From assembly GCA_006969625.1 (NCBI GenBank), contig CP030885.1:4103430-4167429 (forward strand): a DNA stretch of 64,000 bases. Reading direction: 5' to 3'. Below the pieces are notes generated by a model. It had not been told where the DNA came from and did not search any database. It saw only the letters and a list, made by a program, of their open reading frames with translations. Source of the stretch: Rhodospirillaceae bacterium (lineage in GTDB: Bacteria > Pseudomonadota > Alphaproteobacteria > Kiloniellales > DSM-21159). The position numbers and the translations under genes are program-made. Below are positions 26,902 through 39,016 of this stretch, piece after piece. The stretch's first letter is position 1. Every line of letters starts with the position of its first letter.

Positions 26902-27338
26902 ACCCTTTGTTGCAGCTTTCTTGCGGCCGATCCGGACCCGCCGCATGGCCCGGATCTGCGCCGGCGGACCGCCGCTAACGTTCTGGAATTTCTCCGAAAT
27001 CCGGACCGCGGACCGACCTAGCCGATGCCGGAGCCGAGCCGCCGCGACGGCCGCTGCCGCGCCACCGCCGCGCTTGCCGGGTCGTCTTCGGCGCGAACGG
27101 GCGGCTTAACCCTAGACATTGACATCTTCCGGACGGATCCGCATCGTCCCTGCCGTCCGCAACGCCCCTCGCACTCGCGCCTTTGCACGACGCGGATTCA
27201 TGTGCGATTACAAGGGGGCGGAACGGTGCGCTGAGACGGCATGGGAACGCATGCCGCGCCATTGCCGGGCGTGGGGACCGAGCCGACAAGGTTAACGCCT
27301 TGGCAAGGACGGCGTTGCTACTAGGGGGGAAAGCGATC
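26902..27338. other. Divergent intergenic region between the rRNA promoter and the M23 peptidase gene
   Basis: No gene is supported here on either strand. It must hold the promoter of the M23 gene; TTGCAC-17 bp-GATTAC near 27183-27211 is a weak candidate, and a perfect TTGACA at 27119 lacks a -10 at the right distance. A hairpin GGCATG-GGAACG-CATGCC lies about 85 bp before the start. In-frame extension of the peptidase up to 27183 has no ribosome binding site. Confidence 0.4.
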
Positions 27339-30479: not shown

Positions 30480-31463
30480 CTATCCGGCCTGCCCCGCCCG
30501 GGCAAAGGCGGATTCGAGGAGGTAGCCCTTCACCCCCACCTCCCGCGCCAAGGCGCTGCCGATCGGGGCGCCGGCCTCGAGTTGGGCGAGGACGGCGCCG
30601 AAGTCGTAGCGCGGGCGCCAGCCGAGCTCGCGGCGGGCCAGAGCGTTGACATAGACACGGTCGATGTCCGCGAACATGCGGAAGCCCAGTCGGCGGTAGG
30701 TGCGCGCGAAGTCCGGAAACCGCTCGGCGACCGCTTGCGCCGGCTCCCGGCGCAAGCGGTCCAAGTCCTGCCGCGAGAAGGGCGTCGTCGCGCTGACGAC
30801 GTAACGCCGGAAGCCCGGCCCCTCCGGTCGGCGCAGGGCGACCATGTGGGCCATCGCCGCATCCTCCAGGTCGACCCGGCGGTAAAGGAACTCGTTGGCC
30901 TTGGCGTTGACGTCGTCGTAGGCGTCGCGGACGGCCGCGTCGTCGTCGGCCTCAGGAAAGAAGCGCGAGGTCCGCAGAACCGTGCAGGCGAGCGCGTGCC
31001 GCGCGGCGAAGAGGGCGCAGAGGTCCTCCGCCGCCGTCTTGGTGACGCCGTAGATGTTCTTCGGCACGGAGGCGACACCTTCGTCGATCCAAGCCGCCGG
31101 CTCGCCCGGCCCGGGTGCGAGCGCCGCGCCGAAGGCACTGGTGGTGCTGGTGAAGACCAGCCGTTCGACGCCAGCCGCCACGGCCGCCTCGAGCAGGCCG
31201 AGGGTGCCGGTGACGTTGGTATCGACGAAAGCCTGATCCTCGTGCGACGCGATGTGCGGCTTGTGCAGCGTGGCGGCATGCAGTACGGCCCGACAGCCCT
31301 GCAGCGCCCGGCGGAGCAGCGCGCGATCCTGCAGCGCCCCGACATAGTGGGTGAAGGCAGAACGTCGCAAGTCCAGCCCCACGGGCTGGAAGCCGTGGCG
31401 CGGCAGGAGCCGCATCAGCGCCTCGCCGAGATGTCCGGAACTGCCCGTAACCAGAACGCGCAT
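30480..31463 (-). CDS. NAD-dependent epimerase/dehydratase family protein
   Basis: A 327-residue extended SDR. The nucleotide-binding motif is VLVTGSSGHLGEALMRLL at the N-terminus, followed by the conserved VLHAATLHKPHIA, the catalytic Ser/Thr region VFTSTTSAFGAAL and YxxxK as YGVTKTAAEDL. AAGGG lies 7 nt before the ATG at 31463, which fixes the start although the frame is open further. The substrate is likely a nucleotide sugar or similar, but cannot be named. Confidence 0.9.
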   Translation of the reverse strand: MRVLVTGSSGHLGEALMRLLPRHGFQPVGLDLRRSAFTHYVGALQDRALLRRALQGCRAVLHAATLHKPHIASHEDQAFVDTNVTGTLGLLEAAVAAGVERLVFTSTTSAFGAALAPGPGEPAAWIDEGVASVPKNIYGVTKTAAEDLCALFAARHALACTVLRTSRFFPEADDDAAVRDAYDDVNAKANEFLYRRVDLEDAAMAHMVALRRPEGPGFRRYVVSATTPFSRQDLDRLRREPAQAVAERFPDFARTYRRLGFRMFADIDRVYVNALARRELGWRPRYDFGAVLAQLEAGAPIGSALAREVGVKGYLLESAFARAGQAG

Positions 31464-31647
31464 GAGCTGGCCCTTTCGCTCGTCGTGCCGCGGTGCCCCC
31501 TCGCGCGGCGAATGCCAGATACCTGCCAGCCGCCGCCAGAGGCGTGCGGGATGGTCGCAACGAGCGGCGACGGCGGACAAACGACATTGCTGCAAACCGG
31601 CACCGAGCGAGACGCACGGGCCTGCGCATCCCGGCCTGGAGCGCGAT

Positions 31648-31685
31648 CGTCACGGGTGGAAGCGGATCCGCTTCCACCCGTGACG
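31648..31685. repeat. 38-bp perfect palindrome in a divergent intergenic region
   Basis: CGTCACGGGTGGAAGCGGA followed directly by its exact reverse complement, with GGATCC at the centre. It lies in the 380-bp gap between the epimerase gene (minus) and the MFS gene (plus), about 185 bp from the first and 158 bp from the second. No other strong signal is visible in that gap and no gene is supported there. Both genes start outward from it, so it is not placed as a terminator. Confidence 0.97.
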
Positions 31686-31843
31686 TGAATCCTGCCCTAG
31701 GCGGCTTCCGATAGAGTCGAGTCAACCTGTGGTTCCGACGCTCGGCGGTTGCGACGAGCGGCACCGGGCGAACGCATTGCCCGCAGCGCCCGTCTGACCT
31801 ACCACTTCGGACTTGAGACCCGGCGGGCGAAGGAATCCGGCCC

Positions 31844-33124
31844 ATGCGCGACGTGCTGCTCTCGGTCACGGCGCTGATCGTCAGCCTGACGTTTCTTCTG
31901 GCCGGCAACTCGCTGCAGTTCGTCATCCTCGGGCTGCGCGCCGAAGCCGAAGGCTTCTCGGTCAATGTCGTCGGCGCCATGACGGCGGCCTACTACGTCG
32001 GCTACGGGCTGGGGTCCCTGCGTGCGCCGGCCGTGGTCGAGCGGATCGGCCACATCCGTACCTTCGCCGCCATGTCCTCGATCGTCTCCGTGACGGTGCT
32101 GGCGCACGGGCTGTGGAGCGAGTCCCTCTTCTGGATCCTGCTGCGCTTCGTCACCGGCCTGGCCTTCGCCGGGCTGGCCACCTGCGCCGAGAGCTGGCTG
32201 AACGCCCGCGCCACCCGGTCGGTGCGCGGACGCGTCCTGGCGATCGCCAGCATCTGCGCGATCTCCGGCTATGCCGTCGGCCCGCTGTTCGGCGCGCTCG
32301 GCGCGGTCGAGGGCCTGCTGCTCTTCGTCGTCGCCTCGATGCTGATGTCGCTGGCGCTGGTGCCGGTGACGCTGACCCGCTTCAGCCCGCCGCTGGTCTC
32401 CGGCGACGGTAGCGGCATCGATCGCTACTCCATCGTCCGCCTCTACCGCGAAACGCCGCTCGGCTTCGTCGGCTGTCTCGGCACCGGTTTCGTGCAGGGC
32501 GCCTTCCTCGGCCTCGGCGCGGTCTTCGCCGGGCGCGCCGGTCTCAGCGACGCCGGCGCCGCAGTCTTCGTCACCGCCGCGCTGGCCGCCGGCGCCTTGG
32601 CGCAGTATCCGCTCGGCTGGCTGTCCGACCGGCTCGACCGGCGGCGGGTGATCGCGCTTGCGGCCGTCGCCCTGGGTGCCGGCGCCCTGGCGGTCGCCGC
32701 GCTGATGCAGGCGACGGTTACGTTGCCCGTGCTCGCGCTGGCGGCCGCGGTCGCCGGCATCGGCGCCATGCCGCTTTATCCCATCGTCATCGCCTACGTG
32801 AACGACCGCCTGCCCGAGACCTCCATCGTGCCGGCCGCGGCGACGCTGATTCTGACCTTCTCGCTCGGCTCGGCCGTGGCGGCGCCGGTTGCCTCGCTAG
32901 CGATGGACCTCTTCGGCCCCGGCGGGTTGTTCGGGTTCCTGGGGGTGGCGCTACTCGGCCTCGGCGCCTTCGCCGTGCTGCGGATGTTCGTGCGCGACGC
33001 GCCGGAGCCGAGCGCCGAAGGCGTGCTCGCCGTCTCCGGCCCCTTCGTGCCGCTGGACGAGATCGTCGGGGAGACGCAGCTCGATCTCGACCTGGCACCG
33101 CCGGAGGTCGCCGGGCGGAGCTAA
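31844..33124 (+). CDS. MFS transporter (YcaD-like)
   Basis: A 426-residue inner-membrane protein with about 12 hydrophobic segments. Between segments 2 and 3 it has the major-facilitator signature region GYGLGSLRAPAVVERIGHIR and, mirrored in the second half, QYPLGWLSDRLDRRRVIALA. The early LLAGNSLQFVILGLRAEAEG and ESWLNARATRSVRGRVLAI segments resemble the YcaD/sugar-like MFS group. The C-terminal 40 residues are cytoplasmic and acidic. The substrate is unknown. Its stop codon interlocks with that of the convergent oxygenase. Confidence 0.9.
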   Translation: MRDVLLSVTALIVSLTFLLAGNSLQFVILGLRAEAEGFSVNVVGAMTAAYYVGYGLGSLRAPAVVERIGHIRTFAAMSSIVSVTVLAHGLWSESLFWILLRFVTGLAFAGLATCAESWLNARATRSVRGRVLAIASICAISGYAVGPLFGALGAVEGLLLFVVASMLMSLALVPVTLTRFSPPLVSGDGSGIDRYSIVRLYRETPLGFVGCLGTGFVQGAFLGLGAVFAGRAGLSDAGAAVFVTAALAAGALAQYPLGWLSDRLDRRRVIALAAVALGAGALAVAALMQATVTLPVLALAAAVAGIGAMPLYPIVIAYVNDRLPETSIVPAAATLILTFSLGSAVAAPVASLAMDLFGPGGLFGFLGVALLGLGAFAVLRMFVRDAPEPSAEGVLAVSGPFVPLDEIVGETQLDLDLAPPEVAGRS

Positions 33125-37268: not shown

Positions 37269-38147
37269 ATGGCGGCCGAAATGCACTACGCAATCCTTAG
37301 CCGGCGCCGGCTGCTGGCCGGTCTCGCAGGCGCCGCGTGCCTGCCTGCGGTCCCGGCCGCCGCCGCGCCGCGCCCACGGCCCTGGCCGCACTGGGAGATC
37401 CACAATCCGAGCAGCCTGGCGCGCCTCGACCACGCGCCGCTGGAGCGGCTGCTCGCGCGCTATCTGCACACCTCCGATGGACCGCTCGGCGCCGACAGCC
37501 TGTTCGACTACGGCGGCGTTACAGCCGAGCACCGCGGCGAGCTCGACGCCTACGTCGCCGGCCTGGCGCGCGTGCCGATCACCCAATACCGCCGTGCGGA
37601 GCAGCTCGCCTACTGGGTCAACCTCTACAACGCCCTGGTCCTGCAGCAGGTGCTCGTCGCCTATCCCGTCGCCTCGATCCGCGACGTCGACCTGTCCGGC
37701 GCCTTCTTCCTCGGCGGTCCTTGGGCCGAGAAGCTGGTCACGGTGGAGCGCTTCGATCTTTCGCTCGACGACATCCAGCACCGCATCCTGCGCCCGGGCT
37801 GGCGCGACCCGCGCCTGCACTACGTGCTGAACTGCGCCGCGCTGGGGTGCCCGCACCTGCAGCCGCGCGCCTTCGCGGCCGGCGATGCCGAGGCCCGGCT
37901 GGAGGCGGCGGCCACCGCCTTCGTCAACCATCCGCGCACCCTGCAGATGCGCTTTGAGGGTCTGCAGATCTCCAGCCTCTACGTCTGGTATGCGGACGAC
38001 TTCGGCTACGGCCGCAGCGCCGTCATGCGGCACCTGCGCCGCTACGCCACGGGACGCCGTGCCGCCCTGCTGCGCGGCTTGGAGGGCTGGAGCGGCCATA
38101 GCTACGACTGGCGGCTGAACGACCGCGCGCTCTTCGCCGCCGGATAA
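37269..38147 (+). CDS. DUF547 protein with twin-arginine-like signal, copy 1
   Basis: A 292-residue exported protein. The N-terminus has SRRRLLAGLAGAACLPAVPA, a good twin-arginine-type signal with AAA cleavage context near residue 34. The DUF547 core shows AYWVNLYNALVLQQVLVAYP, LHYVLNCAALGCPHLQP and the C-terminal YDWRLND. The conserved Asn, Cys and His positions have led others to suggest a papain-like hydrolase fold, but no activity is established to my knowledge. GGAG lies 8 nt before the ATG. A paralogue follows 17 bp downstream. Confidence 0.88.
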   Translation: MAAEMHYAILSRRRLLAGLAGAACLPAVPAAAAPRPRPWPHWEIHNPSSLARLDHAPLERLLARYLHTSDGPLGADSLFDYGGVTAEHRGELDAYVAGLARVPITQYRRAEQLAYWVNLYNALVLQQVLVAYPVASIRDVDLSGAFFLGGPWAEKLVTVERFDLSLDDIQHRILRPGWRDPRLHYVLNCAALGCPHLQPRAFAAGDAEARLEAAATAFVNHPRTLQMRFEGLQISSLYVWYADDFGYGRSAVMRHLRRYATGRRAALLRGLEGWSGHSYDWRLNDRALFAAG

Positions 38148-38164: not shown

Positions 38165-39016
38165 ATGCTGGACCGACGCCGCCTTTTGGCCCTCGCCGCC
38201 GCCGCGGGCGGCTTGGCCGCCCTGCCGCTGCCGGCCCGCGCCGCGCCCAAGGCAGAGCTGTGGGAGCGCTGGCTGCCGTATGCGCCGCAGAGCCGGCGCC
38301 GGGTGGACCATGCGGTCTGGGACGCGTTCCTCGCCCGCTACCTGCAACAGGGCACCGACGGCATCGCCCGCCTCGCCTACGGCGCGGTGAGCGCCGGCGA
38401 CCGGCGGGCCCTGCGGGGCTACCTCGCGGCGCTGTCGGCGGTGCCGGTGCGCGATCTGACGCGGCCCGAGCAGTTCGCCTACTGGTTCAATCTCTACAAC
38501 GCGCTGACGGTGGAGACGGTGCTGGCCCACTATCCGGTGGACTCGATCCGCGACATCGACATCTCGCCGGGGCTGTTCGCCCAGGGGCCCTGGGGCGCCG
38601 AACTGATCGAGGTCGAGGGCACGCCGCTCAGCCTGGACGACATCGAGCACCGCATCCTACGGCCGGTCTGGAACCAGGACCCGCTGATCCACTACGGCGT
38701 CAACTGCGCCGCGCTCGGCTGTCCCGACATGCAGCCGCAGGCCTTCCGGGCCGAGACCGCTGGTGCCGTCCTGGCGCGTGCCGCCGGCGCCTATGTCAAC
38801 CACCCGCGCGGCGCAGACTTCCGCAACGGCGGGCTGGTCGTCTCCAGCATCTACGTGTGGTTCCAGGAGGACTTCGGCGACAGCGAGGCCGGGGTGATCG
38901 CCCACCTGAGCCAGCACGCGCAGTCGGCGCTCGCTCAGCGGCTGGCGGAAGCCGAGGGCATTTTCGACGACCGCTACGACTGGGCGCTGAACGACGCCGG
39001 GTCGCGCGGCACCTAG
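38165..39016 (+). CDS. DUF547 protein with twin-arginine-like signal, copy 2
   Basis: A 283-residue paralogue of the preceding gene, starting MLDRRRLLALAAAAGGLAAL with a probable Tat or Sec signal ending ARAAP. It carries the same core motifs: AYWFNLYNALTVETVLAHYP, IHYGVNCAALGCPDMQP, SIYVWFQEDFGDSEAGV and YDWALND. The two proteins share roughly half of their residues by eye in the core. They are almost certainly cotranscribed and arose by tandem duplication. Their role in the periplasm is unknown. Confidence 0.88.
   Translation: MLDRRRLLALAAAAGGLAALPLPARAAPKAELWERWLPYAPQSRRRVDHAVWDAFLARYLQQGTDGIARLAYGAVSAGDRRALRGYLAALSAVPVRDLTRPEQFAYWFNLYNALTVETVLAHYPVDSIRDIDISPGLFAQGPWGAELIEVEGTPLSLDDIEHRILRPVWNQDPLIHYGVNCAALGCPDMQPQAFRAETAGAVLARAAGAYVNHPRGADFRNGGLVVSSIYVWFQEDFGDSEAGVIAHLSQHAQSALAQRLAEAEGIFDDRYDWALNDAGSRGT

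Follow-up and report, generated by a model that had tools for sequence, protein, structure and literature searches.

Why does a long, perfect palindrome lie between two divergent genes in this Rhodospirillaceae bacterium? In the window, the whole stretch of 64,000 nucleotides that we analysed, positions 31648-31685 read CGTCACGGGTGGAAGCGGATCCGCTTCCACCCGTGACG, which is the same as its own reverse complement (19+19 bp, no mismatches, no spacer). A scan of the window for inverted repeats with perfect arms of at least 10 bp and spacers of 0-20 returned it as the longest perfect one, the runner-up having arms of 15 bp. The letters and the scan thus confirm the perfect 38-bp palindrome of the initial annotation, and the distances of 158-185 bp that it gave to two outward-facing start codons are right: 158 bp separate the palindrome from the ATG of an MFS transporter gene (31844-33124, plus strand), and about 184 bp from the ATG, at 31463, of an epimerase-like gene (NAD-dependent epimerase/dehydratase, 30480-31463, minus strand), both flanking genes serving as context only. 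Folded as RNA, the palindrome reaches -35 kcal/mol, while its shuffled versions average -11.7 (z -8.8). Elsewhere in the window, an inverted repeat with perfect 15-bp arms and a 3-bp spacer lies inside the epimerase-like coding sequence (30729-30761), and the adjacent paralogous genes at 37269-38147 and 38186-39016 form a tandem duplication with 70-87% identity over several stretches.

To place the palindrome, we searched the whole genome for its half-site, a check that the initial annotation had proposed. The search returned 49 half-site matches. A 22-bp core occurs at 29 places with 0-1 mismatch and at none with 2-3 mismatches. All 29 loci were retrieved and aligned; the match at 4620622 duplicates the copy at 27286, the last ~24.8 kb of the contig repeating its start, and 28 distinct copies stand once this assembly duplicate is removed. 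These many copies establish a repeat family, the last of the options which that annotation had listed. Concerning the assembly itself, positions 4596096-4620894 of the contig repeat its beginning (within 1-27559) over ~24.8 kb in near-identical form, judging from stretches of 5.3 kb and 3.2 kb. The opening ~2.77 kb of the contig, moreover, duplicate the neighbouring sequence in inverted orientation; the terminus is an untrimmed, fold-back assembly end in a contig labelled complete.

The aligned copies take the form TA-GAGCGCGATC-stem-GTGAATCCTGCTC-TA, with sharp boundaries and unrelated flanks outside. By this alignment, the repeat unit at our locus extends from about 31637 (TGGAGCGCGATC) to 31699 (GTGAATCCTGCCCTA), so that the limits first assigned to it were incomplete. 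The whole element (31637-31699, plus strand) is a short form of ~63 bp, one hairpin without a second arm, and its terminal inverted repeats, TAGAGCGCGATC...GTGAATCCTGCTCTA in the majority of copies, are imperfect. In the window copy, the left repeat (31637-31648, plus strand) has its terminal TA mutated to TG, the right repeat (31685-31699, plus strand) carries one GANTC site (GAATC), and the palindromic core or stem (31648-31685) is a CACGGG..CCCGTG variant of the majority CACTGG..CCAGTG. The fold of 31634-31702 reaches -50 kcal/mol (z -8.5). In 18 of the 28 copies, a conserved linker (CTCTATGAATAGAGC) joins this element to a further, different palindrome that has ends of the same type; the resulting unit of ~135 bp forms two strong hairpins as RNA (-98 kcal/mol, shuffled sequences averaging -42). 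The second arm is absent from the remaining 10 copies, the window copy included, and is also met on its own. The family is thus short, non-coding, present in many near-identical copies and set in unrelated flanks, as a MITE should be. Two loci deserve separate mention. At 1148600-1148820 and at another locus, an identical left flank of ~50 bp adjoins two different family copies; it apparently marks where another mobile element, or a gene, ends, and suggests another IS targeting the ends of these elements. At 4014250-4014500 lies a diverged two-arm copy (78% identity) with changes in both stems, most of whose pairing persists; it probably belongs to an earlier generation of the family.

Beyond this genome, the sequence of the stem changes while its pairing persists. 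None of 38 related genomes gave a match to the core as a 24-mer with up to 2 mismatches, and the exact 24-mer had no match in the GTDB genome collection, where records of this genome, or of one very near it, may be missing. By DNA search, both congeners have elements that are about 72-91% identical, and the two-arm composite form is frequent there too. A pattern for the ends only matched the same ends around other cores in one congener (G002) and in a second family of the order, and gave a few more elements in a sample of 289 alphaproteobacterial genomes; the reversed control pattern had zero matches in the relatives' scan and in this sample. Searching the GTDB genome collection returned at least 111 stretches; among the matches listed, about 100 were titled as Alphaproteobacteria, and those listed include Bradyrhizobium, Mesorhizobium, Sphingomonas, Brevundimonas, Caulobacteraceae and Acetobacteraceae. 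Going by their sequences, elements with the same ends and different, compensated stems are widespread in Alphaproteobacteria. When 23 diverse members were aligned, 14 of 27 stem pairs showed changes on both sides and 92% of cells were paired. Covariation amounted to 75 cells versus 22.7 in shuffles and was higher than in every shuffled or slid control. The shuffle control takes no account of relatedness, and the structure was derived from the same sequences, but the slid controls were far lower. An Rfam scan of three copy-bearing loci, that of the window and two others, gave just one chance-level match and no family. In CAIOBP010000253.1, a Rhodospirillales MAG, four elements with TAGAGC ends lie close together, alternating between two types.

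The ends point to a source of mobility. Full IS630-type elements (PF13358) number eight in the genome. They are about 1059-1060 bp long, are bounded by TA and fall into two groups, each of near-identical copies, with the ends TAGAGCGGATTCC / TAGAGCCGTTTTC in one group and TAGAGCGGTTTCC / TAGAGCGTTTTCC in the other. All four kinds of IS630 end start with TA-GAGC, as do both ends of the palindromic element, and one of them reads GAGC-GGATTC, like the element's GAGCAGGATTC; agreement between element and IS630 ends is good over about 6-12 bp only. IS630 elements with TAGAGCG ends also occur in four relatives (G004, G012, G022 and G023), and other IS630 subgroups have other ends.

A TA-duplicating insertion of the IS630 type predicts an empty site, and one is seen at smpB. 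In our genome, a two-arm element sits exactly in the smpB stop codon (AAC AAC TAG-AGC...), the gene ending AACAAC-TA(133 bp including one TA)-GCG. In congener G002, smpB ends AGAAT-TAG-CG without the element, the flank following directly after TAG, and has the same downstream convergent gene; the two smpB sequences are 82% identical over the last 60 bases before the insertion. Removal of the element and one TA from our sequence leaves ...AACAACTAGCGA..., which matches ...CAGAATTAGCGC... in G002. In congener G001, smpB ends with TGA and has no element. This agreement comes from one site, with flanks only ~80% identical and a downstream intergenic sequence that barely aligns, so exact TA duplication rests on a single, moderately diverged locus. 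The smpB site also bears on an expectation of the initial annotation, that missing conservation at the palindrome's locus would count as refutation. It does not, since a mobile repeat is expected to be absent at orthologous loci, as at smpB; the epimerase and MFS genes were not found adjacent in the congeners by DNA search.

We consider it very probable that the palindrome is a copy of a dispersed, non-coding, CIR-like MITE of the IS630 type. The dispersed family has defined boundaries, a conserved structure, ends in common with the resident IS630 elements and one empty site. In the mechanism that we propose, the ends TA-GAGC(N2)GAT.../...ATC(N2)GCTC-TA are those of a resident subgroup of IS630 (Tc1/mariner superfamily), whose transposase would most likely cut there. 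The element would then be pasted into TA, preferably within CTAG and often in a TAG stop codon, with duplication of the TA. Its interior is a long stem maintained by compensating changes, with two stems and a linker in many copies. Judged by the shared ends and sites, mobilisation by an IS630 transposase is most likely. The window copy, slightly decayed and with mutated ends, is probably immobile; it may incidentally insulate two divergent units, and we infer that it has no dedicated function at the epimerase/MFS locus.

Other readings start from the position of the palindrome or from its shape. Its perfect dyad symmetry between divergent start codons would suit an operator for a dimeric regulator of the epimerase and MFS genes, as the initial annotation had offered. 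Such an operator is highly improbable: of its 28 near-identical copies, 26 lie elsewhere than between divergent genes and about half abut a stop codon, it has the ends and the internal structure of a transposable repeat, and its stem varies freely among species with pairing kept, the opposite of what a protein-read operator should show. We reject an operator for these two genes on copy number and location. An REP/BIME-type repeat moved by a RAYT (TnpA-REP, a Y1 transposase) would likewise be palindromic, extragenic, 3' of genes and arranged in pairs, and the 38-mer even begins with CGTC, the tag of an REP superfamily that predominates in Alphaproteobacteria (PMC3733652). CGTC REPs have an unpaired CGTC, stems of 8-9 bp, loops of 4-5 nt and a CCA tail (PMC3733652). 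Our element has a paired CGTC, a stem of 17+ bp and TA-GAGC inverted repeats as its borders. CGTC REPs share with it that they are palindromic extragenic repeats frequent in Alphaproteobacteria, and differ in stem length, in the unpaired tag and in lacking IS630-like ends. No Y1/RAYT transposase (PF01797) was found in the genome or the congeners by a search that finds PF01797 in controls. We regard this origin as improbable, rejecting mobilisation by a RAYT for absence of the Y1 transposase and a CGTC REP for its departure from the published definition.

Two further explanations would give the hairpin a use of its own. Transposition might have dispersed it, and selection then retained it at gene 3' ends as a terminator or an mRNA 3' stabiliser, which we think possible but rather doubtful. 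By gene context, taken from a simple codon-score gene caller, 13 of the 28 copies are convergent, 13 tandem and 2 divergent, the window copy being one of the 2, and about half adjoin a neighbour's stop codon or provide it (e.g. smpB, HSP20, a peroxiredoxin-like gene and a porin); the hairpins are very stable and their stems show compensatory changes. The location is explained by insertion into TAG stops with purifying selection against gene disruption. CTAG occurs 36 times in the window versus about 181 expected from base composition, fewer than predicted, and TA is scarce in this genome of 69% GC. Because of this scarcity TAG stop codons are natural targets, and placement by itself is therefore no proof of terminator function. 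Moreover, the hairpins have no T-tract and the window copy lies between divergent genes. The initial annotation's view that a terminator role does not fit is fair at this locus and does not hold in general, as most copies are at gene 3' ends. A cell-cycle epigenetic site, at which CcrM would methylate the right-end GANTC and GcrA or other proteins would read it, seems unlikely. GAATC stands at the same place in nearly all 28 copies, the genome encodes a CcrM-type RAMA domain protein, a similar methylation role was once speculated for CIR repeats, and 84 of 156 distinct class-wide elements bear GANTC at one end and not at the other, typically as GTGAATC with GATCG opposite; against this, GAATC belongs to the terminal repeat, where transposase binding may account for its retention, and GANTC is missing from 68 of the 156. 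A broader version, in which a class-wide family of IS630-ended hairpins with a selected stem and a fixed CcrM (GANTC) end would form a transposition-delivered layer of methylation/termination control at gene 3' ends, is no less unlikely. Against the MITE reading as it stands weigh the short agreement of the ends, the diverged flanks of the one empty site and the mutated ends of the window copy. Stem conservation across the class, too, exceeds what a pure MITE needs, and some selection on the hairpin is possible.

Known repeats offer close parallels to the MITE that we favour. CIR repeats are the CcrM-associated intergenic repeats CIR1-CIR4 of Caulobacter and Brucella (Chen and Shapiro 2003, as cited in PMC2229807). 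As described there, they are alphaproteobacterial, intergenic and ~110-140 bp long, with two long inverted-repeat arms and a linker, TA ends and a conserved GANTC. Our long form has this architecture (two arms, linker, TA ends, GANTC and a CcrM-bearing host), whereas the window copy is one-armed. CIR GANTC reportedly lies at a terminal loop (PMC2229807), while here a constant GAATC lies at the base of arm A, with another GAATC near the loop of arm B; also unlike CIR, 10 copies here, the window's included, are without arm B. The likeness is one of architecture, drawn from the description of CIR1-CIR4. The precedent is RUP, the repeat unit of pneumococcus, a non-coding MITE for which trans-mobilisation by IS630-Spn1 has been proposed; it lies at TA sites, and its ends match those of a resident IS630 (PMC2229807). 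It differs in host phylum, in sequence and in being a single unit of 107 bp rather than two hairpins. The Rhizobial mosaic repeats RIME and the Br-REP1/2 repeats of Bradyrhizobium are also multi-palindrome intergenic repeats of Alphaproteobacteria and have different core sequences; elements of the form TAGAGCATGATC...GATCATGCTCTA occur in Bradyrhizobium and Mesorhizobium.

We conclude that the element is an ordinary mobile repeat, not novel in kind and not a gene-specific control switch. A striking palindrome is thereby explained as a mobile repeat and tied to a specific subgroup of resident transposons. A 2007 review noted that the mobility mechanism of CIR-like repeats needs more information (PMC2229807). 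If confirmed, our reading would link CIR-like intergenic repeats to IS630-type transposition in Alphaproteobacteria, and this class-wide link of hairpin repeats with an IS630 subgroup is where its modest interest lies.
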